This document shows, piece by piece, positions 14,474 to 57,906 of a stretch of DNA of 64,000 nt; within the stretch, counting starts at the first letter, position 1; the number at the start of each line of letters is the position of its first letter. A model generated the notes under the pieces. It saw nothing but the letters and a program-made list of their open reading frames with translations. It did no database searches and was not told where the DNA came from. This stretch comes from a virus, in the IMG/VR virus record IMGVR_UViG_3300035698_006348, positions 1 through 64,000 of that record; one strand, 5' to 3'. The position numbers and the translations under genes are program-made.

Positions 14474-15583
14474 ATGGGATCAATGAAATATCCAACGATT
14501 GATACTATCGGTTTGGAGATAGAAGTTGAGAATCTCTCTCAACGGAAACTACAAAACGAAGTCAATCCAGCATTATTTTCAATGGTGCATGATGCATCTA
14601 TTGAAAGCAATTCCCCAGTGTTTGGTAATATTCCTATTGTTGTAACTGGGGGAGGTAGAATCCCCAATGTAGGTACTTCTACAATTGGTACTGAGTTAGT
14701 ATCAATTCCTATGGTGATAGAAGGAAACTTTGATCTTCTTTCCCACCTAAAAGAAGTAACTAATATCTTAATTATGAATGGAGAGCCCTTAGAATCATTT
14801 AGAGCATCAACCCATGTCCACGTAAATATTCCCTGGAACTTACAAATTCTAAAGAATATCATGATTTTAGGTGGACATTTAGAAGATTTGTTTTTTAGAA
14901 TTGGCGGTATGGGGTCTACTTTCAGAGGATTGAAAGTAAACAATAGTCAATTCTGTAGACCAATTACTCTTTGGGGACCGCAGTGTGCTGAAGGCAGAAA
15001 CGGTGTATTCCAATTATTTAACATTGAAGATTTATTAAGGTCTAGAACCACATCTGGGTTCTGGAATAGATATGGAGGTATAAATATAACTAATAGTCAG
15101 GTATCAAGATATCACCCAGTTAGGTACACATGGTTAAATCTATATAGTTTGTTATACCATGGTACTCTGGAATTCAGAGTGTTCAATAAAAATTTGAATC
15201 CTCAATTTATCTTGGCAATCATTGATCTCTGCCAATCTTTCTCAAGAACAATTTTGAAAGAATTACCAGAAAATTTGGAAATGAACTCAGTATTTATTTC
15301 TAATGGTAATCAGGAAGAACGCTTTGAAAATATGATTGAGTTACTAGATATATCAGAATCCAAAACACTTCGGACTATCTTTAACCGCAGTAAAGAAGTT
15401 GTATTGGAAGAGGGGTATATCTATAGCCATCTAAATAGGGATACAAGATATAACTTTAACAGATATCAACCAAAGATTGTAACAAACGTATCTCGGTTTG
15501 AAATAGCTGATATCCATCATATAAATCGTGGAAGTCAGTATCTGGAAGATAACGTCTCTAGACCACTAGAAGAAGGAGAATAA
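14474..15583 (+). CDS. Amidoligase (Amidoligase_2 type, COOH-NH2 ligase superfamily)
   Basis: 369 residues, start with AAAGGAG. Motifs in order: G-L-E-I-E-V-E (residues 13-19, metal/ATP-binding acidic strand), H-D-A-S (about 39), G-T-E-L-V-S-I-P (about 73), A-S-T-H-V-H-V-N (about 110-117) and T-L-E-F-R-V-F-N (about 232-239). This is the glutamine-synthetase-like fold of predicted amidoligases that join a carboxylate to an amine with ATP. It is directly followed (3 bp) by a class II glutamine amidotransferase and an ATP-grasp protein, a set known from other phages. The substrate, whether peptide, protein side chain or small molecule, cannot be read from the sequence. Confidence 0.85.
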   Translation: MGSMKYPTIDTIGLEIEVENLSQRKLQNEVNPALFSMVHDASIESNSPVFGNIPIVVTGGGRIPNVGTSTIGTELVSIPMVIEGNFDLLSHLKEVTNILIMNGEPLESFRASTHVHVNIPWNLQILKNIMILGGHLEDLFFRIGGMGSTFRGLKVNNSQFCRPITLWGPQCAEGRNGVFQLFNIEDLLRSRTTSGFWNRYGGINITNSQVSRYHPVRYTWLNLYSLLYHGTLEFRVFNKNLNPQFILAIIDLCQSFSRTILKELPENLEMNSVFISNGNQEERFENMIELLDISESKTLRTIFNRSKEVVLEEGYIYSHLNRDTRYNFNRYQPKIVTNVSRFEIADIHHINRGSQYLEDNVSRPLEEGE

Positions 15584-15586
15584 CAT

Positions 15587-16717
15587 ATGTGCCAATTAAT
15601 ATTTGTAAAGAGTAAAGATCCAAAAATTGCAGCGACAATTACCTATTTACAGATGTACATTGATTCAATAACTGAGCACCAGGATGGTTATGGTGCATAT
15701 GCTAATAATAGTCTCTTTGTTAGTGATGGAGTGGCATCAAACATCACAAATTTACATAGAATCCTTACAAAAATGAATGCCACTGAGTATATTGGGCATG
15801 TTAGGAAAGCCACAAGCTTTAGAGGAAAGAAAGATGTTAAAAACTCTTTCTCCCATCCATTTGATAAAGAAGACTTTACTCTTGCCCACAATGGAACACT
15901 AACATGGGATAAAATTGTAGATGAGACTGCTTTTGAAGCAACAAGACCAGAAGTAAAAAGTATGATAGACTCTGATGTATTTGCAACTTATCTCCAAAGT
16001 GTTTATAATGGCAATATGGTGACCAGTGTACAGCTTGCAATGCGAAAGTTTAATGGTAAATTCGCTTTTATTATATTTGATAAGACTGTCCAAAAACATT
16101 TTATTGTCAGAGGAAAAGCCACATTGTACAAAGCACTTATCACCGCTGGGGAAGAAACAATACTAATTATAAACACAGAAAAAGAATCTCTAAAACGTGG
16201 GCTAGTTCTTACCATAAATATACTAAACACTTATGGATTAAAAGTAGAAGACTTTCCGAAAATAGAAGAAATTCCCGCAGAAACAATTTCTATTATTGAT
16301 GGATATGACGTAAAGGAGGTAGGAAAAATAAAAGAAACCACAGCAACTTACTATCACTCTACTTACAAAGAGAGTACATATATAGCTCCAGCATCAAGTT
16401 GGCAGTATGCTCCACCAACTGGGGCTAAGAAGTTAATTGATTACTGTGTTGACTTTATACGGGACACTGGATTAAGTCTTGCTGAACTAGATATGGTGGC
16501 AAAAGTTGTATTGAATACACCCCTCTTTGGAATGAGGAAAGAAGACGTGGAAAAACTTACTCTTGTTTTGGATGAGCTTCAGAAATTAAACTCACAAGAT
16601 AAGATAAATGCATTTTTATATGGAGATTGTAACCTGACTAATTTACAGTATCCATATATGCTAAATGAAGTAGACGAATTATATGGAGGCCAGAGTGCAG
16701 ATACTATATTTATCTAA
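15587..16717 (+). CDS. Class II glutamine amidotransferase (Ntn hydrolase)
   Basis: 376 residues. Cys2 is the N-terminal nucleophile after Met removal (M-C-Q-L). Further class II signatures: G-H-V-R-K-A-T (about 65), H-P-F, L-A-H-N-G-T-L (about 100) and D-S-D-V-F (about 128), then G-K-F-A-F-I-I-F-D. The enzyme would release ammonia from glutamine and pass it to a partner synthetase. Residues 200-376 lack a synthetase domain, so the acceptor enzyme must be separate; the amidoligase and ATP-grasp neighbours are the obvious candidates. It overlaps the ATP-grasp gene by 23 bp. Confidence 0.9.
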   Translation: MCQLIFVKSKDPKIAATITYLQMYIDSITEHQDGYGAYANNSLFVSDGVASNITNLHRILTKMNATEYIGHVRKATSFRGKKDVKNSFSHPFDKEDFTLAHNGTLTWDKIVDETAFEATRPEVKSMIDSDVFATYLQSVYNGNMVTSVQLAMRKFNGKFAFIIFDKTVQKHFIVRGKATLYKALITAGEETILIINTEKESLKRGLVLTINILNTYGLKVEDFPKIEEIPAETISIIDGYDVKEVGKIKETTATYYHSTYKESTYIAPASSWQYAPPTGAKKLIDYCVDFIRDTGLSLAELDMVAKVVLNTPLFGMRKEDVEKLTLVLDELQKLNSQDKINAFLYGDCNLTNLQYPYMLNEVDELYGGQSADTIFI

Positions 16718-17453
16718 ATTTAAGCCATCAGCAAGAATCCTTCGGGATGCTTTGAATAATGCTGGAGTTACAACCACACTTGCAGGTGAGTGTGAAGACC
16801 TAAATGGCCCATTTATTAGATATGGTCATAAAGGTAGTATTGGGATTAGAAATAATGCTGTTGATTTAAATTTTAATACTCGTAAATTTATTGAAGCTTC
16901 TGGAAATAAAATGATTATGTCAAAAACATTTACAGAGGCTGGAGTAGTAACTCCACAGTTCTACCAAATGACTAAAGATCCAGAAGATTATCCAGTAATG
17001 GTTAGAACAACTCTAAGTGGGTTTAAAGGAAGAGGGATTTATATCTGTGAAACAACAAAAGAGTTTGAGTCCTTCTGCGACCAAAAAGGAAGCTTCTGGA
17101 CACCATTCTTAAATATCTCAAGGGAATATCGGGTTCACGTTGTGAATAACCAAATTGTAAAACTCTTTAAGAAGGTATACTCTGGTGAAGAACCAGAAGA
17201 TTACCCAATTAGGAATATGGATAATGGATACCACTTTTCTATTAGAAATAATATGAATCCATTTGTAAAATTGGTTCAGTTTGTTGATAGAATTTGTGAA
17301 GTAATGCCTATTGGGTTTACTGCAATGGATATAGGATTCTTGGAGAATGAAAGAAAATATATCCTGATAGAAACAAACTCTGCTCCAGGGCTAAATGAAA
17401 ACTCAGCTGGCCTCTTTGTGGATGAGATAAAAAGGAGACTAGATGATCTTTAG
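16695..17453 (+). CDS. ATP-grasp ligase
   Basis: GTG 16695 is preferred because GGAGG lies 5 bp upstream; the ATG at 16683 overlaps that site. 252 residues. An N-terminal Rossmann-like strand, then the ATP-grasp core: P-V-M-V-R-T-T-L-S-G-F-K-G-R-G-I (Lys and Gly-rich loop), E-Y-R-V-H-V-V, and a C-terminal D-I-G-F-L...I-E-T-N-S-A-P-G-L (metal-binding Glu and Asn). The last motif is typical of RimK- and D-Ala-ligase-like enzymes, which join amino acids through an acyl phosphate. Probably works with the amidoligase and the glutaminase next to it. It overlaps the RuvB-like gene by 11 bp. Confidence 0.85.
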   Translation: MQILYLSKFKPSARILRDALNNAGVTTTLAGECEDLNGPFIRYGHKGSIGIRNNAVDLNFNTRKFIEASGNKMIMSKTFTEAGVVTPQFYQMTKDPEDYPVMVRTTLSGFKGRGIYICETTKEFESFCDQKGSFWTPFLNISREYRVHVVNNQIVKLFKKVYSGEEPEDYPIRNMDNGYHFSIRNNMNPFVKLVQFVDRICEVMPIGFTAMDIGFLENERKYILIETNSAPGLNENSAGLFVDEIKRRLDDL

Positions 17454-18207
17454 AGGGCAAACACGAATAATGAGGGAGGTGGATATTCTAACCAAAAACA
17501 TTATACGTGGATACCCTATCAACATTGCTCTGATTGCTCAGAGTGGCATGGGAAAAACAACTCTAGGTTTAAAAATATTGGGTGATGTGGGCATTCATCA
17601 ATCTCAAGTAAGTGGACCACCTGATTTTAATTTTGACTTCGGAAAAAGACACCATCTTTTTGATGAAGTACATGAATTAAAATATCCAGAAGCTTTATAT
17701 GAGATTATGGATAGAGGGGACTACACAATGCTCTTAGCCACAAATGAAAGTGGTGATTTAAAAGAACCGCTATTAAACAGGTGTATTCCATTAATCTTTG
17801 AGGCTTATACAGAAGGAGATTTATATAATATCCTTGGAGATATCATTGGAGACGAACTAAGTAAAGAGTTGTATCCAACTATAATTGATTCTTGTAAGAG
17901 TAATCCACGGGAATTGAAAGTATTAGCAGAACGATTGCTATATGTTAATCGGGAAGTAAAACTTACATCTGTAAGAATGTTAAAAGATGTAATGGAAGAT
18001 ATACTAAATATATACGGAGGCTTAAACCAGAATGATAGAATATATCTTGACAAGTTAGATTCTCTAGGTGGAATGGCTAGTCTTACTTTATTAGAAAATA
18101 GCACTGGGTTATCGAAAAGCTCATTGTTACGTTTAGAGCCAGAACTAATAGCCAATGGGTATATTAAAATTTCCTCACGTGGAAGAGTTTTAGTCAAAAA
18201 ATATTAA
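17443..18207 (+). CDS. RuvB-like AAA+ ATPase with winged-helix C terminus
   Basis: 254 residues. Walker A A-Q-S-G-M-G-K-T-T (about 32-40), Walker B H-L-F-D-E-V-H (about 71-77), sensor 1 L-L-A-T-N-E (about 99), N-R-C near 111 as the possible arginine finger, and a C-terminal winged helix (about 200-254) like that of the RuvB motor, which drives Holliday junction branch migration. It is shorter than cellular RuvB (about 330-350 residues) and no RuvA is present. The phage also has a Hjc-like resolvase at 41711. Its place inside the amidoligase operon is odd; it could be a remodelling ATPase for that system. Confidence 0.8.
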   Translation: MIFRGQTRIMREVDILTKNIIRGYPINIALIAQSGMGKTTLGLKILGDVGIHQSQVSGPPDFNFDFGKRHHLFDEVHELKYPEALYEIMDRGDYTMLLATNESGDLKEPLLNRCIPLIFEAYTEGDLYNILGDIIGDELSKELYPTIIDSCKSNPRELKVLAERLLYVNREVKLTSVRMLKDVMEDILNIYGGLNQNDRIYLDKLDSLGGMASLTLLENSTGLSKSSLLRLEPELIANGYIKISSRGRVLVKKY

Positions 18208-18225
18208 GAATTATTTGGAGGTACA

Positions 18226-19170
18226 ATGAAACAAATTTTTAATTACAACACAAACAGCAAGTATCTTTTACACTCACCAGCTTTTAAAGAAATATCTGCG
18301 GTTTTAAAAGATAAAGGATTTGAAACTGTTTACCAGCTGGAAGTTGATCCTAATATTACATTCCTAATAGAAATAGAAAAAGATGACCTACGTCTTTATA
18401 AACCATCTACAGCCCCAGTTGAGGCAGGATATATTGAGATGGCTTATAAGAATAATGAGTATTCTAAATTTATTGGGCATATGCTATTAGTTGATAAATA
18501 CGGAACTAAGCTATATGATTTTACAGACAAAACCCCACTCAGTATAGGGGTTAAAAAATGTGAGGTTTTCTATGATTTGGGATCAGATATGCTGGAAGAA
18601 TCACCACGTATATTCTTTTTTAAGGATACTGCTATTGTTAATGACAGCAGGAAAACAAATATATTTGCCATGTTAAAAATAATCTATATGTCTGCTGGGC
18701 TTATGATACCCCAAAAGGAAACTGAATTCGGATCTGGAGTTGTATTTGGTATCATAAGGAAATTGGGAGGAATGGAAGATAAAACAGTACTTACAATAAA
18801 ACTGGCAGAACCAGTGTTATATCCAAGGAAAAAATTAACAAAGAATCCAAAAGAAAGTAAAAAACTTGGGAAAATTGGTGCAAAAATTGCAAGAAAACTT
18901 GTGAAAGATAAAAGAAAGGCAGAAACGAATGTATTGACATATAGTACTTCCATGAAATTATCAGAACTCCTAAAAACAAAATTGGGAGAAGGAGCTGAAA
19001 TTCCAACAGTTATTAATGACATAGAATTGGATAAAGTGGAATCAATGGCTGTTAGAAAAGGACGGCTATACATAAAAATTAGTACTAATGACCCAGCCAC
19101 ATTTGAAAAGGTTTATAGCACCTTCAATGATGCGGCAATAGCTTTATATACGATCATAGGAGTAGACTAA
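18226..19170 (+). CDS. Unknown 314-residue protein in amidoligase operon
   Basis: Start with TTGGAGGTAC upstream. Residues 1-190 are mixed alpha/beta; residues 200-235 are extremely basic (K-K-L-T-K-N-P-K-E-S-K-K-L and K-D-K-R-K-A-E), likely to contact nucleic acid or an acidic partner; 240-314 form an alpha/beta end. No enzymatic motif seen. It overlaps the following Zn protein by one base. Confidence 0.6.
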   Translation: MKQIFNYNTNSKYLLHSPAFKEISAVLKDKGFETVYQLEVDPNITFLIEIEKDDLRLYKPSTAPVEAGYIEMAYKNNEYSKFIGHMLLVDKYGTKLYDFTDKTPLSIGVKKCEVFYDLGSDMLEESPRIFFFKDTAIVNDSRKTNIFAMLKIIYMSAGLMIPQKETEFGSGVVFGIIRKLGGMEDKTVLTIKLAEPVLYPRKKLTKNPKESKKLGKIGAKIARKLVKDKRKAETNVLTYSTSMKLSELLKTKLGEGAEIPTVINDIELDKVESMAVRKGRLYIKISTNDPATFEKVYSTFNDAAIALYTIIGVD

Positions 19171-19529
19171 TGTTATACCATGCAAAATGTGGTGGTAGTA
19201 TCACTATTGATATTGCCCAAAATATATCCACGGTAGCTTCGTTTGGAATTGGTTATTCAGAGCTAAGAACAAGTCTTATTAAACTAAACTTCAATAAAGG
19301 TGCAGCAAATGCCAGGGCGTTCTATTGTGTAAACTGCGATAGAGTCATTGAGCCAGAAGAAGTTGTCGGTAAGTGTATGCACTGTGGAGAAACATTCCCA
19401 GCTGATAAGCTGTATATTCCAGAATGTGGTGGAGTATACTGTGAAAAATGTGCTAAAGAAGAGTTTAAATCATACAAGAAAAAGAACGTACTTGTAATTC
19501 TCAAAACTTGTAAACTGGTAATTAAATAA
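19170..19529 (+). CDS. Double zinc-ribbon protein
   Basis: 119 residues. The C-terminal part has C-V-N-C (about 52), C-M-H-C-G (about 69) and C-G-G-V-Y-C-E-K-C (about 88-96), enough for two zinc sites. The N terminus contains a further C-G-G. Likely a small nucleic-acid- or protein-binding adaptor within the amidoligase operon. Confidence 0.65.
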   Translation: MLYHAKCGGSITIDIAQNISTVASFGIGYSELRTSLIKLNFNKGAANARAFYCVNCDRVIEPEEVVGKCMHCGETFPADKLYIPECGGVYCEKCAKEEFKSYKKKNVLVILKTCKLVIK

Positions 19530-19541
19530 AAGGAAAAACAA

Positions 19542-20438
19542 ATGACAAAGTATGGAACTGACCCAGAAGTGTTTATCTCTACTGAAGTAATTCCAAGTAG
19601 TTATGATGAAAATTTTATTAAAGATATTCCGTTCTGTGATATTCCCATCTCACTAGAACGAGAGGGCAAGATTAAACCAATGGATGAAGATGTAAGACAC
19701 CCATTGTATTTTGAAGGAAAAGACTATAAAGTTATTGGTGATGGTGTAGCGTTAGAAGTTAATTTGAAAAGACCACACACTGATCCAAATGAAATGAGAG
19801 AAATTGTTTTAGACGCTTTAGCCACAGTAGAACTGGAGGCTGGGCTGAAGTGTGAAGTTATCCCAGTTGTAAACTTTGATTATCAGAGATTCTGTACTCA
19901 AGAGAATATGATGGATGAACGGTTTGCGACATCTGTTATCTTTGGCTGTGACCCAGATGAAGATGCATTCGATGTATACGACTGTAATACCATAGATGCT
20001 ACAAGCCATCCATATAGATATGGTGGTGGTCATATTCATCTCTCCGATATCGGAGAGGCTGTAGAATATCCAAGAGTGATTACTAAATTATTAGCACTTA
20101 CAGCTGGAAACTTCTGTAACGCTAATACTAAATTCCCTGAGTTAACGAAGGTACGTGGCGAACTATATGGTAATCCCGGAAGATTCAGAAGGCAGAGTTA
20201 TGGAAATGGAACAAAAGGTGTTGAATACCGTTCACCATCCAATGAGTGGCTTACCTTTGAAAAGAGTACATTTGAATTACTATTTAAATGGATTGATACA
20301 GCAGTAATCTTATTCAATAGCCCAGATGGTAAAAGTGTATTGGAGAAGTTTGAATTTCCAACATTCTCTGCAATAAAAAGCTGTAATGCTGAAAAATCAA
20401 ATGTTATTTTGAAACAATTGGAAAAATATCTACAATAG
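19542..20438 (+). CDS. phiEco32-type amidoligase (COOH-NH2 ligase type 2)
   Basis: 298 residues. Motifs: G-T-D-P-E-V-F (residues 5-11), G-D-G-V-A-L-E-V-N (about 73-81, acidic strand), F-G-C-D-P-D-E-D (about 133), G-G-G-H-I-H-L-S-D (about 161-169), then G-N-P-G-R-F-R-R and V-E-Y-R-S-P-S-N-E-W (about 228). These match the phage-specific amidoligase family named after phage phiEco32. A second, differently built amidoligase in the same operon as gene 14474 suggests two ligation steps or a heteromeric ligase. Its substrate is unknown. Confidence 0.88.
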   Translation: MTKYGTDPEVFISTEVIPSSYDENFIKDIPFCDIPISLEREGKIKPMDEDVRHPLYFEGKDYKVIGDGVALEVNLKRPHTDPNEMREIVLDALATVELEAGLKCEVIPVVNFDYQRFCTQENMMDERFATSVIFGCDPDEDAFDVYDCNTIDATSHPYRYGGGHIHLSDIGEAVEYPRVITKLLALTAGNFCNANTKFPELTKVRGELYGNPGRFRRQSYGNGTKGVEYRSPSNEWLTFEKSTFELLFKWIDTAVILFNSPDGKSVLEKFEFPTFSAIKSCNAEKSNVILKQLEKYLQ

Positions 20439-20447
20439 GAGAAAATA

Positions 20448-21179
20448 ATGAATTGCAGTTTAAAAATTGTATACAAGGGCTTGGTGGATTGTCCAAGTAA
20501 AAGTTATGGTAACTACTGTGGGAATACTGTCCCATTCTCAAGATTTATGAGGGATATGTCATTCACGTATGATGTGGATTATTCCTGTAGGGAATCACTC
20601 CTATATGGAATCAGGAAGTTTACAAGGATGCTTGATGGCCATAAAGAATTATACGGCACAAGGGATTTTTGGATTTATATCTCCGCAACAGAGTATATTG
20701 CTTCAGTGAAAACAACCAATATGATTGAGGAGTTATTTTCAGCAGATGGATGGGGAGTTAGTGTAGAACGAGATAAAAGCATAGCTAATGGTGTAAAAGT
20801 TAAAATTAATCCATACAAAGGATGGGCTGGGCAATTTTCATACAGTTTTATACTTCTGATGTTATGTTTAGAAGTTAGCACGTTTCCCACAACTCCAGAA
20901 GACCTTATTGCCCATATGCTGAGGATAGATATGGTTATACGGGTTGACTGCTTATTTACAGGCTTTGCATACAGACTGCTAAAGGCCTCTCCGCATTCAA
21001 TCCCAAGAGGTGATTTGGGCCCAAGAATAAATGGTTGCTGTAATGCAATAAAAAATTCACCCCTCAATGTGGATAATTTACGTTGGTACAGAGCAAATAT
21101 CAGAAGTCAGTATAATTTTGATACTGAAATATTATCCAAAATGGGATTAAATATTGGTATTTTTAAATTTAGAGGCTAA
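20448..21179 (+). CDS. Unknown 243-residue protein in amidoligase operon
   Basis: Starts 9 bp after the amidoligase and precedes the gamma-glutamyl hydrolase by 16 bp. Mixed alpha/beta with several scattered Cys (K-G-L-V-D-C-P, G-C-C-N), aromatic patches, and a hydrophobic helix near 140-155. No catalytic motif identified. Co-transcription with the amide-bond enzymes suggests it may be the modified protein or an accessory factor; that is inference. Confidence 0.55.
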   Translation: MNCSLKIVYKGLVDCPSKSYGNYCGNTVPFSRFMRDMSFTYDVDYSCRESLLYGIRKFTRMLDGHKELYGTRDFWIYISATEYIASVKTTNMIEELFSADGWGVSVERDKSIANGVKVKINPYKGWAGQFSYSFILLMLCLEVSTFPTTPEDLIAHMLRIDMVIRVDCLFTGFAYRLLKASPHSIPRGDLGPRINGCCNAIKNSPLNVDNLRWYRANIRSQYNFDTEILSKMGLNIGIFKFRG

Positions 21180-21195
21180 AAAAGGAGTATAAAAA

Positions 21196-21813
21196 ATGAA
21201 AATCGGGATCGCATATCCAACATTGCATACCAACTTCCTAAATACATGGGAAGATGTAAAAGTAATTGAATCACGAGATGATATCGCATGGGCTGATTTA
21301 GTGGTGTTTACTGGTGGAGAAGATATAAGCCCATCCATTTATGGGCATCGAGCTACCTACACAAGTGGAACCAACATGAAAAGAGATAACACGGAAAAAA
21401 ATGTCTTTAATTATGCTTCTAGATTAAATAAACATATGCTTGGTATTTGTAGAGGACACCAACTAATTGCTGGGCTTAAAGGAACTAGACTAGTCCAGGA
21501 CATTAATCAAGAAGAATATAGACATCATGGATATCACCATAACGTTGATTGGGAAGTACCACCGATAGACAGATCATACCCATTTGCAGAAGCTGGAAAA
21601 GAGATTGTGGACTTATACTCAGATGGAGTAAATAGTTTGCATCATCAAGGATACACTGATCCAAGCTTTAGTACATGGGTATTGGGGGTGTTTGGTGAGA
21701 TTGTTGAAGCAACAATTAATAAAAGAATTATAACAACACAGTTTCACCCAGAAATGCTATCCACTTTTAGGTCTTTCTTAGAGATAGTAGAAAGATGGGT
21801 AGAGAGATGCTAA
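21196..21813 (+). CDS. Peptidase C26 / class I glutamine amidotransferase-like gamma-glutamyl hydrolase
   Basis: 205 residues. V-F-T-G-G-E-D-I-S-P-S-I-Y-G (about 38-51), nucleophile elbow G-I-C-R-G-H-Q (Cys about 85), N-S-L-H-H-Q-G and T-T-Q-F-H-P-E (His and Glu of the triad, about 179-184). The TGGxDxxPxxYG and GxCRGxQ motifs are those of PuuD-like enzymes that cleave gamma-glutamyl bonds. In this operon it may remove a gamma-glutamyl or amide-linked group added by the ligases or process their product. Class I and class II glutaminase folds in one operon imply separate chemistry. Confidence 0.88.
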   Translation: MKIGIAYPTLHTNFLNTWEDVKVIESRDDIAWADLVVFTGGEDISPSIYGHRATYTSGTNMKRDNTEKNVFNYASRLNKHMLGICRGHQLIAGLKGTRLVQDINQEEYRHHGYHHNVDWEVPPIDRSYPFAEAGKEIVDLYSDGVNSLHHQGYTDPSFSTWVLGVFGEIVEATINKRIITTQFHPEMLSTFRSFLEIVERWVERC

Positions 21814-22319
21814 ATCCACTAGGTGATTATATTCTTTCTATGACTCCATCTGGAAATGATGTTAAGAAAAGATTTGGTGATCTAAGCCTACGAATTAAAC
21901 AAGCAATTATTACTGCCAATCGGGATTCCTATCCAAAAATAAATAGTATGAAGCTGGAGTTTGAATCTAAAAATACGACACAATTTAATAAAGATATGGC
22001 TAAATTGAAAAAGTATGTAAAAGAATTAGAAAAAGATTTTGAATGGGTTATACCGTCTATTAGTAAAAATGCTTTGGACGGTAAAAAACTGACTTTCTCT
22101 GAGAAACTTAGGGAAGAACATGCTATGGGAATGGCTACTCCTGATGTTATAAGAGTGAGAGGCGGTGATGTAAGAATGGCTGAAGGAGATACACTTCATG
22201 TGCAAGCACCCACTCAGCCCTATTATTCACCCCCACAAGTTAGAACTAGTAGTGGGTTCTCAACAACTACAGCAACTGATGGCACTTCCACAACATATAC
22301 TCATTCAGATAATGATTAG
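21795..22319 (+). CDS. Unknown protein with low-complexity C terminus
   Basis: 174 residues (170 if ATG 21807 is used), overlapping the C26 gene by 19 bp or less. Residues 1-95 are helical and Lys/Glu-rich, possibly coiled coil; residues 110-174 turn into a Ser/Thr/Pro/Gln-rich flexible tail with no hydrophobic core. Such a tail next to amide-bond enzymes would be a plausible substrate, but there is no direct sign. Confidence 0.55.
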   Translation: MGREMLNPLGDYILSMTPSGNDVKKRFGDLSLRIKQAIITANRDSYPKINSMKLEFESKNTTQFNKDMAKLKKYVKELEKDFEWVIPSISKNALDGKKLTFSEKLREEHAMGMATPDVIRVRGGDVRMAEGDTLHVQAPTQPYYSPPQVRTSSGFSTTTATDGTSTTYTHSDND

Positions 22320-23934: not shown

Positions 23935-24303
23935 ATGGAGAACAAAATGGTTAAAGAATTACTTACAGAAAAAGAACTAATGGAAAAAGTAAAACAAGCA
24001 AATAATATAATGAAACTTAGATATGATAGTGATGATTTTAGTATGATATGGGTCTTACGTTTTAAGTATAATGGAAATAATGATTACTTTATATATAATG
24101 CAGAGGGAGACTATAATATCTTTATTTCTCCATATTATATATCTATCTCTGGAAATATGGGAGCAATTATGAAGTTTTTTGACAATCATTATGGAAATAT
24201 TTTCCCAAAATTAGAAATAGACTCAGAAACAATGGAAGTTATGTTAGAAGAATGGCGTGGATTTAATAAACTAATGCCTATTATAAGTGGAGAGGATAAA
24301 TAA
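23935..24303 (+). CDS. Unknown small protein
   Basis: 122 residues (118 from the Met at residue 5, which has better spacing from AAAAGGAG). Two N-terminal charged helices then a beta-rich part with many Tyr, Phe and Asn. Placed 1 bp before the RtcB gene. Function unknown. Confidence 0.55.
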   Translation: MENKMVKELLTEKELMEKVKQANNIMKLRYDSDDFSMIWVLRFKYNGNNDYFIYNAEGDYNIFISPYYISISGNMGAIMKFFDNHYGNIFPKLEIDSETMEVMLEEWRGFNKLMPIISGEDK

Positions 24304-24304
24304 A

Positions 24305-25522
24305 ATGTTAAAAATTTCTGGTAAATATAATGAAGCAGTAGTATATGCAAATGAAGTTGAAGAGACTGCCAAAGACCAAATCATTGAATTGTGTAACCAA
24401 CAATTTACTGCTGGATGGGCTATTAGAATGATGCCAGATTTACATGCTGGTGCTGGATGTGTAATTGGAACAACTATTGATCTGAAAGAGAATAAGAAGA
24501 TTGTACCAAACCTCATTGGGGTAGATATTGGCTGTGGGGTTAGAGTTGTACATCTAGGAAAGGTGGATATTGATTTTGATAAATTAGAAAACTTTATTAG
24601 AACAAATATCCCAACTGGATTTCATGTTAGAAGTAAACCTCATAGGTTATTGGAAGAAACAAGACTACGTGATCTATGCTGTTATTCAGATGTTTACAAG
24701 CCAAAGCATAAATTAGCCATTGGAACTCTCGGAAGTGGCAATCATTTTATTGAGATAGATAAAGATAACCAAGGAAATAAATATTTACTAATCCATACTG
24801 GTAGTAGAAATTTAGGGTTCAGGATAGCTAATTTTTGGCAAAGAAGAGCTATTGAGACCATTGGTATAGCCAAAATTAAATATAGGGAGGATGTAATTGC
24901 CCATGCAAAGAAAACAAATGAAGAAGGTACTATCCAAGATAGACTTAAAGGAAATTTTTTAAGGACACCACCAGAGGCATTGTGTTATCTAGAAGGAGTA
25001 AACTTTGATGGTTACATGATGGATATGAAGGTAGCCCAGGAATATGCAGAGCTAAACAGAAAAGCCATAGCAGAGGTTATCATCGAAGGTATGGGATTTA
25101 CACCTATTCATCAATTCTCATCGGTCCATAACTATATTGAAGATTCAAGAATTATTAGAAAAGGTGCAGTCTCTGCCAAAGAGGGTGAACGGCTAATTAT
25201 CCCAATCAATATGAGGGATGGGGCTTTACTATGTGCTGGTCTTGGGAATAAAGATGCAAACTATTCTGCTCCACACGGGGCTGGTAGACTATATTCACGT
25301 GGTGATGCAAAGAGAAAACTTAGCATGGCTACATATGAAAGTGAGATGTCTGAGGTTTATACAACAAGTGTAACTCCAGAAACTCTTGATGAATGTGCTG
25401 GAGCGTATAAACCAATAGAAGAGATTATTAAAAACATTGATACTCTGGTAACAGTTACTGAACATATAGTACCAGTATACTCACTAAAGGATATCCCAGA
25501 GAAAAGAAGAAGGAGAAGGTAA
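24305..25522 (+). CDS. rtcB: RNA 3'-phosphate ligase RtcB
   Basis: 405 residues from ATG 24305, next to the previous stop and with GGAGAGGATAAATAAA upstream. All hallmark blocks are present: M-P-D-L-H-A-G (about 45), G-V-D-I-G-C-G-V (about 73, metal Cys), G-S-G-N-H-F-I-E (about 145), H-T-G-S-R-N-L-G (about 163), S-V-H-N-Y-I-E (about 273), K-G-A-V-S-A-K-E-G-E, and the G-A-G-R-L-Y-S-R-G-D-A-K loop that bears the guanylylated His region. RtcB joins 2',3'-cyclic phosphate or 3'-phosphate ends to 5'-OH ends using GTP and Mn2+. In a phage it would repair tRNA cut by host anticodon nucleases. Confidence 0.97.
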   Translation: MLKISGKYNEAVVYANEVEETAKDQIIELCNQQFTAGWAIRMMPDLHAGAGCVIGTTIDLKENKKIVPNLIGVDIGCGVRVVHLGKVDIDFDKLENFIRTNIPTGFHVRSKPHRLLEETRLRDLCCYSDVYKPKHKLAIGTLGSGNHFIEIDKDNQGNKYLLIHTGSRNLGFRIANFWQRRAIETIGIAKIKYREDVIAHAKKTNEEGTIQDRLKGNFLRTPPEALCYLEGVNFDGYMMDMKVAQEYAELNRKAIAEVIIEGMGFTPIHQFSSVHNYIEDSRIIRKGAVSAKEGERLIIPINMRDGALLCAGLGNKDANYSAPHGAGRLYSRGDAKRKLSMATYESEMSEVYTTSVTPETLDECAGAYKPIEEIIKNIDTLVTVTEHIVPVYSLKDIPEKRRRRR

Positions 25523-25869
25523 TGCCCACTGTAACATATTGTTTTTATGGAGTGTATAGAACTATGTATAAAATGGATAATATTCTATGTAAAGTTACTG
25601 AGGATAATGGGTATTACAGAACAACACATATACCATCAGCTACAACTGGTTTAGAAGCTATCCGTAGTAAATTCCCCATAACTCCTTTGGCAACCGTAGT
25701 ATATAAAGGACTTTATGAAGAACATGGTTTTAAAGGATTTAATATTATCGACTGTGAAGATAAGCATATATGGTTACATGCTGGCGTTGATTTAAATAAT
25801 AAATTTGTGTTTGAATATACACCAAAAAAGGCGGGTGTAGTGGATAAAGATGGGTTTATTTGGATATAG
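25522..25869 (+). CDS. Unknown small protein, paralogue of next gene
   Basis: 115 residues, one-base overlap with rtcB and AGAAGGAGAAGG upstream. Beta-rich barrel-like pattern: F-Y-G-V-Y...K-M-D-N-I, K-G-F-N-I-I-D-C-E-D-K-H-I-W-L-H-A-G and a C-terminal D-K-D-G-F-I-W. The next protein shares all of these, so they are tandem duplicates. Function unknown. Confidence 0.6.
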   Translation: MPTVTYCFYGVYRTMYKMDNILCKVTEDNGYYRTTHIPSATTGLEAIRSKFPITPLATVVYKGLYEEHGFKGFNIIDCEDKHIWLHAGVDLNNKFVFEYTPKKAGVVDKDGFIWI

Positions 25870-25883
25870 AAAAGGATAAGATA

Positions 25884-26225
25884 ATGGAATTTGATTTTTA
25901 TGGAACATATAAGGATATGTTTAAAATGGGCACTGTGATAGCTTTAGTAACTCCTGATGAGCATCTTGGATTCAGAACTGAATTTATATCTGCTGCTATA
26001 GAAATAGCTAATAAATTCTCTGAAGAACCATTGGCAAGAGTAACATATAAATCTATACTATCAGAAGGATGGAAAGGATTTACATTAACTGATGCAGAGG
26101 ATGGACATATTTGGCTAACTGCTGGTACTAAAGAAGATCATTATGGTAATAAAGAGTTTGTATTTCTATCTAATATGGAACAAAAACAATCAAAAGTGGA
26201 TAGTGAAGGTTTTGTATGGATGTAA
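25884..26225 (+). CDS. Unknown small protein, paralogue of previous gene
   Basis: 113 residues from ATG 25884 (AAAAGGATAAGATA upstream); an in-frame start at 25860 overlaps the previous gene. Shares F-Y-G-T-Y-K-D-M-F-K-M-G, K-G-F-T-L-T-D-A-E-D-G-H-I-W-L-T-A-G and the D-S-E-G-F-V-W end with its neighbour. Confidence 0.6.
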   Translation: MEFDFYGTYKDMFKMGTVIALVTPDEHLGFRTEFISAAIEIANKFSEEPLARVTYKSILSEGWKGFTLTDAEDGHIWLTAGTKEDHYGNKEFVFLSNMEQKQSKVDSEGFVWM

Positions 26226-28049: not shown

Positions 28050-30353
28050 TCATTTATTCAGTATCTGGAAAAACTTAGATTTATCTCTGTAAATTGTGCC
28101 TCCTTTTAACTCTGACTTCCACATATAAATATACATAGCAAATACTTCATCTACTGTAGTATTAGTTGGACAATTAATTGTTTTACTAATACTATTGGTA
28201 ATATACTCTTGCCATGCTGATTGCATGTTTACATGGTCTTTCCAATCAAGATCATGAGCAGTAATAAATACTTCCTTAAGCTTATCTGGAACTCCATCTA
28301 TATCTTGTAGTGAGCCTTTAGCTATAATTTCTTTCTTTATTTCCTCTAAATTTTCAACCCCATATTCTTCTAGTTTTCTAAATAGAATTGGGTTTACTTC
28401 TACAATCTTATCCTTTACAGAATTACCAACACCCTCTGTTATATATCTAGTGTAAGCTAAAGCAAAGAATGGTTCAATACCAGAATTTACTCCAGCTAGT
28501 AAAGCAATACTTCCTGTTGGTGCTATTGATGTAACTGATACATTCCGTAATGGAAAGTCAGTACGTTCAATAGGTTTATTTATTCCAGATAGTGGGGAAT
28601 TTAATACTCTATTTACTGATGAGAAGTCAATCTGCTCCGCATCATAATCAGGAAATGTTCCGCGTTCTTCTGCAAGTACATTTGACTCCAATATAGCAAA
28701 GAATGAAATAAACCATCCTAAATAATTTGCGAGAGTTATAGCATCTTTGGAATTATATGGCATCTCCAGCTCTGCTAACAAATCAGCAAACCCCATAACA
28801 CCTACACCAAGCCTACGCAATGCTTTGGATGTAGTGTTGATTTCATCAATCTGGGTCTCCGAGATCGTCTGAACATTATCAAGAAATCTTACGGACTTTC
28901 TAACTAAAAACTCTAAGAACTCTAAATTGAGTGCCTTCGTGTTAAAATCATATACACTATGTAAGTTAATACTACCTAAGCAACATGATTCATGTGGTAA
29001 TAGGGGGACTTCACCGCATGGGTTGGTCGTATCTATATCTCCCTTATACTTCCTAACTATATTATCTTTGTTTACTCTATCTAAGAATAGAATTCCTGGA
29101 TCTCCAGACTCCCAAGCCCGTAAAGCAATATTATATAAAATAGCTCTGGCTGGTACAGTTTTTACTACCTTCTTATCAACAACAGATAATAAATTCCAAT
29201 TCTTATCCTCAATAACTGCTTCCATAAAATCATCTGTAATTCCAATAGAGACATTGAAATGAGTTAGTTGATTGTTCTGTAATACATGAGATAAATCTTC
29301 AATGTTTCCAGCATCCTTAGAATACGCCTGGAATTCACTAATCAGGCGTTTATTTTTTTCAGTTAATGTAGATTTATAATCTATAAATTCAATAACATCT
29401 GGATGAGTAATATTCATAATACCCATCTGTGCTCCTCTTCTAGAAGCCTGTTGTATTACTTCTCCTGTATGGTCAAACAAGGTCATAAAAGATAATGGAC
29501 CAGAATTATGTGAAATAAATCCATTTGCAATAAAATTATGAAACGGCTTTTTCATCGCTAAATCATACACCTTCTCAATACCAACATATTCAATGGAAAT
29601 AATCTTATCAAAGTATATTTCCTTGTGTAATCTTGGATTTCCTACTGCAATTAAGTCTCCAACAGAGAATTGTTTTGTTTCTTGCCAATCATGTTTAGAA
29701 TTTAAAAACCTATGATTACTTGTCGCCTTTATTGAATATCCGTCTTCTGTGGTTATTTTATAGACCTTTTCCTCTCCATTGTAAATAATATCCACTATAC
29801 TATTTAGACCCAATGAATTATTTTCTTTCATACACCTAATAAGAGGAAAAACCTTGCCTCTAGACCTTCTATCAAATAATGTGGAAAGAGTTACTTCCTC
29901 TTTTTGTTTCCATCTTGCACTATCTTTATATACAACTGTGTCACCAGTCAAACAAGCCTTACCTCCAGTAGTTTTTATCTCAGCACCCTTTTCTCTAATA
30001 CGAGAGAAATTATATCCTACTCCCCCTCCCCAAGCAAACACTTCAGCAGACTTACCTAAAGCATCATATAATGATTTTCGTGAGTCCTCTATTGGAATCA
30101 CAAAGCAGTTCATAAGATTCTTTATACCAGTACCAGCATTAGCTATAACTCTCCCACCTGGAAGAAAAGCATTATTACTAATCATATTGAAGAAGTCTCC
30201 AGCTAACTTGGAGACTTCTTCTTTTGTTTTACCATATGAAAGTTCTGCATTAGCCACTGTTGAACTTACTCTCCAGCAAGCCTCTTCCCATGTTTCTTTT
30301 GGATCCACAGCATACTTCATCTTGAATATTCTGTTTGCTACATCATTTAACAT
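28050..30353 (-). CDS. nrdJ: Class II (B12-dependent) ribonucleoside-diphosphate reductase, mini-intein inside, C-terminal redox tail missing
   Basis: 767 residues including a 150-residue intein (134-283). Extein motifs: G-G-R-V-I-A-N-A-G-T and M-N-C-F-V-I-P (redox Cys, residue 83), G-P-L-S-F-M, S-R-R-G-A-Q-M-G, N-P-C-G-E-V-P (radical Cys and Glu) and C-C-L-G-S-I-N-L, then A-P-T-G-S-I-A-L and N-C-P-T-N. This is the NrdJ pattern; it makes dNDPs with adenosylcobalamin and needs no radical partner subunit. The protein ends at G-G-T-I-Y-R-D, where normal NrdJ continues to a C-terminal Cys-rich redox tail. A matching tail is encoded at 48842-48970. Last gene of the leftward operon. Confidence 0.93.
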   Translation of the reverse strand: MLNDVANRIFKMKYAVDPKETWEEACWRVSSTVANAELSYGKTKEEVSKLAGDFFNMISNNAFLPGGRVIANAGTGIKNLMNCFVIPIEDSRKSLYDALGKSAEVFAWGGGVGYNFSRIREKGAEIKTTGGKACLTGDTVVYKDSARWKQKEEVTLSTLFDRRSRGKVFPLIRCMKENNSLGLNSIVDIIYNGEEKVYKITTEDGYSIKATSNHRFLNSKHDWQETKQFSVGDLIAVGNPRLHKEIYFDKIISIEYVGIEKVYDLAMKKPFHNFIANGFISHNSGPLSFMTLFDHTGEVIQQASRRGAQMGIMNITHPDVIEFIDYKSTLTEKNKRLISEFQAYSKDAGNIEDLSHVLQNNQLTHFNVSIGITDDFMEAVIEDKNWNLLSVVDKKVVKTVPARAILYNIALRAWESGDPGILFLDRVNKDNIVRKYKGDIDTTNPCGEVPLLPHESCCLGSINLHSVYDFNTKALNLEFLEFLVRKSVRFLDNVQTISETQIDEINTTSKALRRLGVGVMGFADLLAELEMPYNSKDAITLANYLGWFISFFAILESNVLAEERGTFPDYDAEQIDFSSVNRVLNSPLSGINKPIERTDFPLRNVSVTSIAPTGSIALLAGVNSGIEPFFALAYTRYITEGVGNSVKDKIVEVNPILFRKLEEYGVENLEEIKKEIIAKGSLQDIDGVPDKLKEVFITAHDLDWKDHVNMQSAWQEYITNSISKTINCPTNTTVDEVFAMYIYMWKSELKGGTIYRDKSKFFQILNK
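29505..29954 (-). mobile_element. Mini-intein in NrdJ (no endonuclease)
   Basis: Residues 134-283 of the NrdJ reading frame. It begins with Cys (C-L-T-G-D-T block A), has T-S-N-H-R-F (block B His) and ends F-I-A-N-G-F-I-S-H-N, followed by Ser as the +1 residue. Removing it joins T-G-G-K-A to S-G-P-L-S-F-M, an unbroken conserved RNR block. At 150 residues there is no room for a homing endonuclease, so it is fixed or degenerate but should still splice. Confidence 0.95.
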
Positions 30354-49077: not shown

Positions 49078-49150
49078 AGGGGCATATTTCAATTGGCAGA
49101 ATACTTGCCTTGGACGCAAGTGGTTGGGGATTCAAATTCCTCTGCCCCTA
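49078..49150 (+). tRNA. tRNA-Pro (anticodon TGG)
   Basis: Cloverleaf with a perfect 7 bp acceptor (AGGGGCA with TGCCCCT), D-arm 49087-49102 with 3 pairs, anticodon stem CTTGC/GCAAG with anticodon TGG at 49111-49113, and T-arm GGGGA-TTCAAAT-TCCTC. Discriminator A; CCA not encoded. Confidence 0.92.
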
Positions 49151-49220
49151 CTAGATGCAATAGTTCCTAAAAGCTATAGCTCCCTTTGTAAAGAGTGACA
49201 GCCTGGAGAGACAGGCATAT

Positions 49221-49294
49221 GGACAGGTAGCTCAATTAGGTAGAGCACTAATCTCCAAAATTAGTGGTTCTGGGTTCGATTCCCAGCCTGTGCC
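49221..49294 (+). tRNA. tRNA-Trp (anticodon CCA) with irregular acceptor stem
   Basis: D-arm GCTC/GAGC, anticodon stem CTAAT/ATTAG with CCA at 49255-49257, T-arm CTGGG-TTCGATT-CCCAG. The acceptor GGACAGG faces CCTGTGC, leaving a G-G mismatch at the second pair; alternatively G 49292 bulges and the stem closes with 49293-49294, making G 49295 the discriminator, as is usual for bacterial tRNA-Trp. CCA not encoded. Confidence 0.85.
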
Positions 49295-49303
49295 GCTAGA
49301 CAT

Positions 49304-49376
49304 TCCTAGATAGCTCAATTGGTAGAGCGAGCGGCTGTTAACCGCTAGGTTAGTGGTTCGATTCCACTTCTGGGAG
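49304..49376 (+). tRNA. tRNA-Asn (anticodon GTT)
   Basis: Acceptor TCCTAGA with TCTGGGA (one G-T pair), D-arm GCTC/GAGC, anticodon stem AGCGG/CCGCT with GTT, T-arm AGTGG-TTCGATT-CCACT. Discriminator G followed by CC, so the CCA end is not fully encoded. Confidence 0.93.
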
Positions 49377-49380
49377 CCTT

Positions 49381-51099: not shown

Positions 51100-51356
51100 G
51101 TGATTTTATCTTTTTACATATAGGGTATTTTTTCTTTGGAATGATTATTGGTATAGTCCTGGCCTCTTTAAAAAATAAACAAAGTAGGCATTATGTAGTT
51201 AGACCGAAGAAACCAAATAAGCCTCCTAAAGTTCCAGCATATCCACAAGTAGGTAAAAATTGGATATTTTTTAATCCGACTGGTTCCTATGATGATGATC
51301 CATTTGTAGTGCAAGATAAAAGTATAAAGAGGTATAAAATTGGAAAAGGAAAATAA
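51096..51356 (+). CDS. Small membrane-anchored basic protein
   Basis: 86 residues: one N-terminal membrane helix (about 4-24), then a basic Lys/Pro-rich segment (R-P-K-K-P-N-K-P-P-K) and a soluble C terminus. ATGA overlap with the previous gene; the 3' end overlaps the dehydratase by 17 bp. Unknown function. Confidence 0.6.
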   Translation: MSDFIFLHIGYFFFGMIIGIVLASLKNKQSRHYVVRPKKPNKPPKVPAYPQVGKNWIFFNPTGSYDDDPFVVQDKSIKRYKIGKGK

Positions 51357-52323
51357 AACAGCAGTAATTACTGGTGTTTATGGGCAAGATGGTAGTTACT
51401 TAGCAGAGTATCTTCTATCACTCAACTACACAGTATATGGAGTATCTAGACCAAAACATACTGGATACATTCCAGAGTATATGTATAAAATATTGGAGCA
51501 TGAGAATTTTAAAAGTGTATCAATTGATGTAATTGATGCTGGGGCTGTATTTGGAATTGTAAATCAGATAAAACCTGATGAGTATTATAATTTGGCTGCT
51601 ATCTCATTTATTCCTATTTCTTGGGATAATCCATCCTTAGTTTTGAATATAAATACAATTGGCACACTAAATGCTTTAGAGGCAATAAGAACTTGTTCAC
51701 CAAATACTAAGTTCTATCAAGCTAGTTCTAGTGAGATGTTTGGAAACTCTAGAGATGTTCCACAACATGAAAATACACCAATGAATCCAGAAAGTCCTTA
51801 TGCAATTTCAAAGGTAACTGGACATAATTATACAAATAACTATAAAGATAGTTATGGAATCTTTGCTGTATCTGGATTAGCATTTAATCATGAGTCTCCA
51901 CGTAGACGGAAGGAGTTTGTTACTAGAAAGATTACAAATGCTGTGGTTAGAATAAAAGCTGGTTTACAAGATAAATTATTTTTAGGGAATATTTCTGCTA
52001 AACGTGATTGGGGTTTTTCAGGGGATTACGTAAAAGCAATGTGGCTTATGCTACAAAATAGTGAGCCAACAGATTTTGTGATTGGAACAGGTATTGATTA
52101 TTCTGTCGAAGATTTCTGTAAAGAAGCCTTTAGCTATGTAAATTTAGACTATACTAAATATGTAGAAATTGACGAAAAGTATATTAGACCTGTAGATGTT
52201 CAACGATTGTTGGCAGACCCCTCTATGATTGAACAACGATTGAATTGGGTGTCTATTATTGGCTTTAGTGATCTTGTTTCTATGATGATGGAGCACGATA
52301 AAAGTTTAGTAGGGTTACATTAG
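51340..52323 (+). CDS. GDP-mannose 4,6-dehydratase-like SDR enzyme
   Basis: 327 residues from TTG 51340, the only start that keeps the N-terminal strand, with AGAGG upstream. I-T-G-V-Y-G-Q-D-G-S-Y (NADP-binding GxxGxxG), N-L-A-A, S-S-S-E-M-F-G (catalytic Ser/Thr and Glu), Y-A-I-S-K (Tyr and Lys of the SDR triad), N-H-E-S-P-R-R. These are GMD motifs. Produces GDP-4-keto-6-deoxymannose. First enzyme of the glycan locus, and its product suits the aminotransferase at 55277. Confidence 0.9.
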   Translation: MEKENKTAVITGVYGQDGSYLAEYLLSLNYTVYGVSRPKHTGYIPEYMYKILEHENFKSVSIDVIDAGAVFGIVNQIKPDEYYNLAAISFIPISWDNPSLVLNINTIGTLNALEAIRTCSPNTKFYQASSSEMFGNSRDVPQHENTPMNPESPYAISKVTGHNYTNNYKDSYGIFAVSGLAFNHESPRRRKEFVTRKITNAVVRIKAGLQDKLFLGNISAKRDWGFSGDYVKAMWLMLQNSEPTDFVIGTGIDYSVEDFCKEAFSYVNLDYTKYVEIDEKYIRPVDVQRLLADPSMIEQRLNWVSIIGFSDLVSMMMEHDKSLVGLH

Positions 52324-52336
52324 AAAGGAAAGGATT

Positions 52337-53242
52337 ATGAAGAACGTATTGCTTATTGCAGGTGGAAGACGAGTTGATCTTGGAAGACGCTTTGAACAAG
52401 CTGGTTATACTCCTATATTTTATGAATTATGTTCTACTGCACCAGTTTCTACTTATTTCAGAACTGTAAAAGGTTTGAAATGGGATGATAAGAAAATTTA
52501 CTGGGATATTGAAGATACAATTAAACGCTTTAATCCAAGTTTTGTATTTCCATTACAGGATGCTGCAATTCCTATCTTGGCTAGAATAAAACAAAGAGGC
52601 TACGATAATATTATTGTATCTGATGAAAAGACTGCTAATATTTGTACTGATAAACAATCTTTTGAAACCTTTATGTTAAGTAATTTTCCGTTTATTTACC
52701 CGTATCCAGAAGTACATAAGAAAATGATTGTGAAACCAAGATTTGGTTATGGATCAAGGGGAATTACAATAGAGGAGTCTCCAGAGCTTATAGTTCAACA
52801 TAATAAAGTATGTCAGAGATTTGTAGAGGGTGTGGAATATTCAGTTGATGCTTATTTTGATAAAAAGAATTCTTATGTAGATTCAGTACCTAGAATAAGA
52901 AATATAATTGGAAGGGGAGAAGTTGTTTCTAGTACTACAAAAGAAAATAAGCTCTTACAGTACTACGTAAAAGAAGTTGGAAGGAAACTTCAATTATATG
53001 GTCCAATTAATTTTCAGTTTATTGTAGGAAAGGGAGCACCAGCCCTAATAGAGATAAATGCTAGGTTTGGTGGTGGGATGACACTCTCTATGGAAGCAGG
53101 ATTAGATATTATTAAGTTACTAGAAATTGATCGTGGATTATCAAAAGAATGTTATAGTGTTGATAAATGGAGGAAAGGCTTAACAGTGGAAAGATCATAT
53201 CAAGACCACTTCTTTACTGAGCCTTGTACTCTAATGGGATAA
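52337..53242 (+). CDS. ATP-grasp enzyme in glycan locus
   Basis: 301 residues. N-terminal Rossmann part (L-L-I-A-G-G-R-R, V-F-P-L-Q-D), then ATP-grasp core: M-I-V-K-P-R-F-G-Y-G-S-R-G (Lys and Gly loop), Q-R-F-V-E-G-V-E-Y-S-V-D and A-L-I-E-I-N-A-R-F-G-G-G (metal Glu and Asn). The layout is that of the CarB-like group, which forms carbamoyl- or amide-type bonds and is often found in sugar modification clusters. Substrate unknown; perhaps amidates or acylates the sugar. Confidence 0.82.
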   Translation: MKNVLLIAGGRRVDLGRRFEQAGYTPIFYELCSTAPVSTYFRTVKGLKWDDKKIYWDIEDTIKRFNPSFVFPLQDAAIPILARIKQRGYDNIIVSDEKTANICTDKQSFETFMLSNFPFIYPYPEVHKKMIVKPRFGYGSRGITIEESPELIVQHNKVCQRFVEGVEYSVDAYFDKKNSYVDSVPRIRNIIGRGEVVSSTTKENKLLQYYVKEVGRKLQLYGPINFQFIVGKGAPALIEINARFGGGMTLSMEAGLDIIKLLEIDRGLSKECYSVDKWRKGLTVERSYQDHFFTEPCTLMG

Positions 53243-53256
53243 ACGAAAGGAGTTTT

Positions 53257-53694
53257 ATGTTTACTTATACAGAAAATAGGAAATTAATTGGATATGCTTA
53301 TGTTTGTGGAGATATTCTCCATTATGGGCATGTGCTCCATTTACAAAACTGTAGAGCTTTATGTGATAAGTTAATAGTTGGCGTTCTAACAGATGAAGCT
53401 ATTATGGAAAAGAAACAGAAGCCAATTATCGGATTACGAGATAGAATGGAAATGGTTGAACTACTTCCATATGTAGATATTGTAGTACCACAGAATGATT
53501 ATTCACCTATATATAATATATGTGATATTGGTGTAGATGTTTTATTTGAAAGTACAAGTCATTCAAAAGAAGATTTAAAAGAAACATTTGATATCGCTAA
53601 AAAGAAAGGAATCAAAGTAAGAGTAATGCCTTATTATCCTAATAACAGTTCAACAGAAATAAAGGAGAAAATTAAATCTGAATGGAAGAAGTAA
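53257..53694 (+). CDS. Cytidylyltransferase-family nucleotidyltransferase
   Basis: 145 residues from ATG 53257 (AAAGGAG upstream). Y-A-Y-V-C-G-D-I-L-H-Y-G-H (HxGH, about 20-25), V-G-V-L-T-D-E, K-Q-K-P-I-I-G-L-R-D-R (about 59) and N-S-S-T-E-I (ISSTxI motif near 133). The family moves CMP or AMP to glycerol-3-phosphate, ethanolamine phosphate or similar, giving CDP-activated groups. Likely feeds the LicD-like transferase two genes on. Confidence 0.88.
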   Translation: MFTYTENRKLIGYAYVCGDILHYGHVLHLQNCRALCDKLIVGVLTDEAIMEKKQKPIIGLRDRMEMVELLPYVDIVVPQNDYSPIYNICDIGVDVLFESTSHSKEDLKETFDIAKKKGIKVRVMPYYPNNSSTEIKEKIKSEWKK

Positions 53695-54887: not shown

Positions 54888-54896
54888 GGAGTTAGT

Positions 54897-56404: not shown

Positions 56405-56417
56405 AGGAACAGGAAAC

Positions 56418-57900: not shown

Positions 57901-57906
57901 AGGTAT

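Follow-up and report, generated by a model that had tools for sequence, protein, structure and literature searches.

A phage amidoligase cassette whose enzymes point to glutamate-type amide bonds and a gamma-glutamyl removal step

The stretch of DNA analyzed here, referred to as the window, comprises bases 1–64000 of the 86,463-bp IMG/VR virus record IMGVR_UViG_3300035698_006348. It carries an amidoligase cassette in a + strand operon of ten consecutive open reading frames (ORFs; 14474–22319), which are spaced by −35 to +18 nt and nearly all of which are preceded by a purine-rich ribosome-binding site (Table 1). Domains were assigned by Pfam and PHROG profile searches with the score cut-offs of Pfam. 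A sequence-only reading of the window had placed five enzymes and three unknown proteins in one operon at 14474–21813. The same-strand ORFs, profile matches and intact motifs bear out the five enzymes, namely an Amidoligase_2 ligase, a class II glutaminase, an ATP-grasp ligase, a COOH-NH2 ligase and a Peptidase C26 protein, and each retains its expected catalytic motifs. The unknown proteins are also present, but an AAA+ protein and a Zn-ribbon protein had been overlooked, and the third unknown gene begins inside that interval and ends beyond it. The Pfam scores of the ATP-grasp ligase are below cut-off for both R2K_2 (20.8 bits versus 26.2) and RimK (18.7 versus 21). The conserved acidic, His and Arg active-site residues of the COOH-NH2 ligase are D7, E9, H164, E228 and R230. 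This family has no detectable sequence relationship with Amidoligase_2 beyond the HxH motif, which agrees with the earlier claim that two distinct amidoligase families are encoded. No evident membrane segment is found in any cassette gene product, which suggests that the acceptor is probably cytoplasmic. The GC content of the cassette (0.33–0.38) is close to the window mean (0.34), so there is no sign that the cassette was imported very recently. Gamma-glutamyl cyclotransferase (GGCT), a second family with gamma-glutamyl-cleaving members, is absent across the whole record.

Table 1. Genes of the amidoligase operon in the window.
Product	Length (aa)	Position	Strand	Evidence
Amidoligase_2 (PF12224) ligase	369	14474–15583	+	36.5 bits, cut-off 22; motifs GLEIEVE, HVHVN, EFR
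Class II (Ntn) glutaminase	376	15587–16717	+	PF13522 and PF13230 above cut-off; Cys2, GHVRKAT, SHPF, HNG, DSD
ATP-grasp ligase, RimK/R2K-like	256	16683–17453	+	phrog_2599, E 1e-21; E-x-R-x-H, K, ExN (IETNSAPG)
AAA+ protein with RuvB_C winged helix (clamp-loader-like)	254	17443–18207	+	Profile match; overlaps operon
Protein without recognized family	314	18226–19170	+	Positional counterparts of 286–388 aa in relatives, sequence match not significant
Zn-ribbon protein	119	19170–19529	+	Six invariant Cys; homologue beside cassette in window-type relatives
COOH-NH2 ligase type 2 (PF14395)	298	19542–20438	+	23.2 bits, just under cut-off 25; phrog_3815, E 6e-18
Protein without detectable relatives	243	20448–21179	+	Profile searches
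Peptidase C26 / gamma-glutamyl hydrolase-like	205	21196–21813	+	71.5 bits, cut-off 20.5; Cys85 (GICRG), QFHPE triad motif
Protein overlapping the C26 gene	174	21795–22319	+	No relatives found

The COOH-NH2 ligase of the window was modeled from 86 sequences with a predicted local distance difference test score (pLDDT) of 93. The Foldseek E-values of the model are marginal (best 1.5e-3). Structural alignment over about 220 residues gives Z scores of 12.2 for Dop/PafA, 11.9 for YbdK, 11.7 for plant and bacterial glutamate-cysteine ligases and 11–12 for glutamine synthetases, and the predicted fold is that of glutamine synthetase. PafA/Dop, YbdK, glutamate-cysteine ligase and glutamine synthetase all act at the gamma-carboxyl of glutamate. 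The ATP-grasp sequence is nearest to the RimK alpha-L-glutamate ligases (for one relative, to MptN), and the class II glutaminase is nearest to PurF and GlmS. The C26 sequence is nearest to Lin1909 and PuuD, lies further off from plant gamma-glutamyl peptidase and weakly matches gamma-glutamyl-CDP-amidate hydrolase. Together, the enzymes point to the formation of glutamate-type amide bonds and to a gamma-glutamyl removal step.

Among named phages, 134 records match the COOH-NH2 ligase query. The enzymes are co-located in the annotated Zobellviridae phages Klyazma, O4, T5S1 and T2S2, the phiEco32-like phages SU7 and SU10, the Vibrio phages Vp_R1 and WD615, the Alcaligenes phage QDWS535 and one spring-water phage, and the cassette is visible in the published gene table of the LUZ24-like phage UFV-P2. 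Two IMG/VR scans yielded 160 loci. According to profiles built for this analysis, and with the window and the annotated phages counted, the COOH-NH2 ligase, Amidoligase_2, ATP-grasp and class II glutaminase occur together in 113 distinct loci (114 in a later count). Chance is excluded as the origin of the grouping because the same enzyme families co-occur in more than 100 other phage contigs. A core protein of about 190 aa (phrog_4877/phrog_11055; for example, L086 10796–11389) is present in 90 of the 113 cassettes, normally between the two amidoligases; its confident model (pLDDT 92) has no confident match in the PDB, where the best rows are small SH3/tudor/KOW-like barrels with E > 0.1. The cassette is mostly located just upstream of primase/helicase genes (88/114 loci) and DNA polymerase genes (77/114), with the neighboring families named from sequence and from annotated phages. 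In a bacterial collection of 84,980 genomes, the COOH-NH2 ligase matches 12 contigs of metagenome-assembled genomes, many with a phage-type cassette; hence no bacterial chromosomal home was found for the cassette, nor did a search with the window-type amidoligase find one. A sequence-only search of IMG/VR with the ATP-grasp ligase returned no close relatives, a tblastn search of named phages with Amidoligase_2 returned none, and long versions of the cassette enzymes, inspected as Rosetta-stone fusions, gave no informative additional Pfam domain. In contig L167 (4818–15700), several COOH-NH2 ligases alternate with class II glutaminases and Amidoligase_2 is not detected, which is possibly a different type of cassette.

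C26 and GGCT replace each other as the hydrolase of the cassette. They have unrelated folds, yet both families include enzymes that cleave gamma-glutamyl amides. Among the 83 loci with complete flanks, 44 encode C26 only, 17 GGCT only, 21 both and one neither, against 9.8 expected to have neither under independence (Fisher p 1.8e-6). Strict mutual exclusion is therefore rejected by the 21 loci with both, and the rule is at least one, which holds in 82 of the 83. On the ligase tree, the C26 state changes at least nine times and the GGCT state 16 times. A reduced cassette of Amidoligase_2, glutaminase and ATP-grasp without the COOH-NH2 ligase occurs in four lineages (the L126 clade, L146, L148 and L131), and none of the four has C26, GGCT or the 190-aa protein, even when the thresholds are relaxed (hypergeometric p 2e-6, assuming independent lineages). 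The hydrolase thus tracks the COOH-NH2 ligase, and a removal step is almost obligatory when this ligase is present. The make-and-remove cycle suggested for the window by the sequence-only reading gains support from both patterns, in the form of gamma-glutamyl chemistry on a cytoplasmic acceptor. Loss of catalytic residues in most homologues had been named as evidence against such a cycle; most homologues of each family keep the motifs, including 97 of 106 C26 proteins, 56 of 58 GGCT proteins (YGxL), 144 of 151 COOH-NH2 ligases (EYR), 148 of 170 ATP-grasp ligases and 165 of 169 glutaminases (HNG). The lowest counts are those of the N-terminal Cys pattern of the glutaminases (100/169) and the HxH pattern of Amidoligase_2 (111/165).

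The nearest relatives of the window are the uncultured phage contigs L013, L014, L015, L016, L017 and L178, the enzymes of which are about 25–43% identical. The gene order in L013, L014, L015 and L017 is that of the window: Amidoligase_2, glutaminase, ATP-grasp, AAA+, a protein of about 300 aa, Zn-ribbon and COOH-NH2 ligase, followed by C26. L016 keeps the ligases and glutaminase in this order, with no C26 detected and a Zn-ribbon counterpart visible only in alignment; L178 is rearranged, and its Zn-ribbon gene still adjoins the COOH-NH2 ligase gene. Within the window-type group, the Zn-ribbon protein is found only with the cassette and is its conserved partner. The AAA+ gene is also present without the cassette in L174–L177 and was rejected as a cassette member; it is a neighbor rather than a core gene. 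The 190-aa core protein is not detected by profile in the window or its closest relatives, and the window cassette is a divergent, rearranged variant of the known cassette that lacks this usual component. The 314-, 243- and 174-aa proteins, which had been put forward for partner prediction, are not detectably conserved as partners in related cassettes. Searched against Pfam, PHROG and PADLOC, they yield no noteworthy match, and in profile-profile comparison none matches the 190-aa core protein, the usual upstream protein of about 300 aa or one another. A 'SCRES' likeness between the 243-aa protein and a 295-aa window protein is not significant and was rejected. Directly after C26, L013 (11594–13736), L014 (12125–13623) and L015 (11622–14452) encode two to three tandem copies of a fast-evolving paralogue family (243–354 aa). 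The 243-aa protein does not match this family, which is undetectable in the window, and was rejected as a member.

On balance, we consider it somewhat more likely than not that the phage amidoligase cassette attaches glutamate-type amide bonds to a soluble acceptor in the cytoplasm and that C26 or GGCT cleaves a gamma-glutamyl amide. This proposal draws on the gene content, the motifs, the predicted fold of the COOH-NH2 ligase, the C26/GGCT interchange and the absence of both hydrolases without that ligase, from which we infer the gamma-linkage, the order of steps and the acceptor. The RimK-like ATP-grasp ligase and Amidoligase_2 would form the glutamate-type amide bonds on the acceptor, and the class II glutaminase would feed both by converting host glutamine to ammonia and/or glutamate. 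The COOH-NH2 ligase, with its predicted glutamine-synthetase fold, would activate the side-chain (gamma) carboxylate of glutamate and link it to an amine. C26, or GGCT in other phages, may then cleave the gamma-glutamyl amide, either to deprotect or mature the product or to strip misplaced glutamates. The likeliest class of acceptor would be a soluble peptide or cell-wall precursor produced in early infection, rather than DNA or the virion. Mass spectrometry of coliphage SU10 detected only six early proteins, and three of them are the cassette's ATP-grasp, glutaminase and YtfP/GGCT products (PMC4281155); the sample was a lysate concentrated with polyethylene glycol and, according to the authors, not gradient-purified (PMC4281155), so the detection shows expression rather than a location in the virion.

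Several points weigh against the proposed gamma-glutamyl chemistry. A fold of the glutamine-synthetase superfamily is not proof of glutamate specificity, and C26 resembles class I glutaminases and could release ammonia instead. The contigs compared are related, with only two independent contrasts on well-supported branches of the ligase tree, so the p-values overstate the evidence, and the absence calls rest on the profiles built in this analysis. The literature found, which does not extend to Iyer 2009 and Hardies 2013, reports neither a substrate or product of the cassette nor any cassette mutant; the sequence-only reading likewise knew of no assigned product.

The precursors of peptidoglycan are cytoplasmic and contain gamma-linked glutamate (textbook knowledge), which fits the cytoplasmic enzymes and the gamma-glutamyl chemistry. 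The peptidoglycan hypothesis reportedly traces to Iyer 2009, where the amidoligase proposal is said to originate, and to Hardies 2013. A 'Peptidoglycan Modification Cassette' was named for RIO-1, phiEco32, 7-11, PA11, tf, MR299-2, LUZ24, PaP3 and CW02 (PMC5498523), the proposal is repeated in two further papers (PMC11945000, PMC6256558), and superinfection exclusion is cited for phiEco32 (PMC10580990, PMC11318856). The cassette has thus already been published as a putative peptidoglycan modification module, contrary to the novelty implied at first, and the modification itself is hypothetical. Unusual amide links in the side-chain peptides of peptidoglycan, serving superinfection exclusion or lysis, are in our view a possible but doubtful function: no experiment on it was found in the literature, and no Mur-ligase, lipid II or D-glutamate genes are recognized by eye among the recurrent neighbors of the cassette. 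Moreover, the C26 and GGCT enzymes characterized so far cleave L-gamma-glutamyl bonds, whereas peptidoglycan contains D-glutamate (textbook knowledge).

Auxiliary nitrogen or amino-acid metabolism, in which glutamine, ammonia and gamma-glutamyl compounds are recycled for phage replication, has been claimed for Phage-ZRK32 (PMC10945688) and would employ the glutaminase, glutamate-type ligases and gamma-glutamyl hydrolases that are all encoded. It is unlikely here, given that the two amidoligases and the ATP-grasp ligase would use ATP and are unnecessary for simple nitrogen recycling, and that no counterpart of the cassette was found on bacterial chromosomes. Slightly less likely again is protein tagging, with RimK-like addition of glutamate at a protein C-terminus followed by a PafA-like isopeptide bond that C26 or GGCT reverses. 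RimK is the nearest relative of the ATP-grasp ligase, and Dop and PafA are the top structural rows for the COOH-NH2 ligase model, but they are tied with glutamine synthetase and glutamate-cysteine ligase; no Pup-like protein was found in a non-exhaustive check of small ORFs, and no Glu/Gln is conserved at the C-terminus of the 190-aa protein, which is undetected in the window type. We would give lower odds still to a phage-encoded reversible tagging system, in which the RimK-like ligase adds glutamate to a protein terminus, the PafA-like ligase makes a gamma-glutamyl isopeptide and C26 or GGCT detaches the tag, analogous to pupylation and depupylation with different parts. DNA had been listed among the possible targets, and the usual position of the cassette just upstream of replication genes would suit hypermodification of bases by a glutamate-derived group. 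Such a role is nevertheless very improbable, since the DNA of cassette phage tf is cut by RsaI, HpaI, EcoRV, SmaI and HaeIII (PMC3517423) and that of the module-carrying LUZ24-like phage U17 is sensitive to 11 of 16 enzymes (PMC11945000), which makes bulk modification unlikely; PF00303 thymidylate synthase is also absent from the record of the window.

Elsewhere in the window, an RtcB-type RNA ligase (24287–25522) lies shortly downstream of the cassette and is followed by adjacent ORFs of 115 and 121 aa that by eye resemble a tandem duplication (25522–26225). The ribonucleotide reductase large subunit (28050–30353, − strand) contains an intein (Intein_splicing), as does the terminase large subunit (58800–61565, + strand; Intein_splicing with LAGLIDADG), and three phage tRNA genes are located at 49078–49378. 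Near the packaging genes, the region 51340–58824 encodes a GDP-mannose 4,6-dehydratase, a second ATP-grasp protein (ATPgrasp_Ter type), a DegT/DnrJ aminotransferase and a family 2 glycosyltransferase, possibly a phage-encoded amino-sugar pathway.

The cassette is present in well-studied lytic phages (phiEco32, LUZ24 and PaP3) and in many uncultured phages. To its published description we add the C26/GGCT interchange, the coupling of these hydrolases to the COOH-NH2 ligase, a model that places this ligase in the glutamine-synthetase superfamily and an account of the 190-aa core protein; DNA, in addition, no longer counts as a likely target. The interchange and the link to the COOH-NH2 ligase replace a vague 'amide-bond synthesis' with the specific prediction that this ligase forms a gamma-glutamyl amide, cleavable by C26 or GGCT. 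Once found, the product would reveal either a previously undescribed conjugate for host takeover or a novel trick played on the cell wall.

The window cassette shares with the podophage module (RIO-1, PSA-HP1, phiEco32, 7-11, PA11, tf, LUZ24, PaP3, CW02 and phiM6) a COOH-NH2 ligase, a second amidoligase, an ATP-grasp ligase and a class II glutaminase in one operon, together with a gamma-glutamyl-cleaving enzyme, which is GGCT in the LUZ24 and phiEco32 types and C26 in the window. In contrast, the window has the order Amidoligase_2, class II glutaminase, ATP-grasp, AAA+, 314-aa protein, Zn-ribbon, COOH-NH2 ligase, 243-aa protein and C26, lacks both the 190-aa core protein and GGCT, and its cassette does not adjoin polymerase or primase genes. 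PafA/Dop and the glutamate-cysteine ligases have the same superfamily fold as the modeled COOH-NH2 ligase (Z 11.7–12.2) but only 8–10% identity to it, and no Pup-like protein was found. The Zobellviridae cassette (Pseudomonas phage O4, Klebsiella phage Klyazma and T5S1-k141_444551) encodes the identical five enzyme families, with a C26-type hydrolase and no GGCT beside the cassette, and differs from that of the window in its gene order and in the 190-aa core protein located between its two amidoligases.

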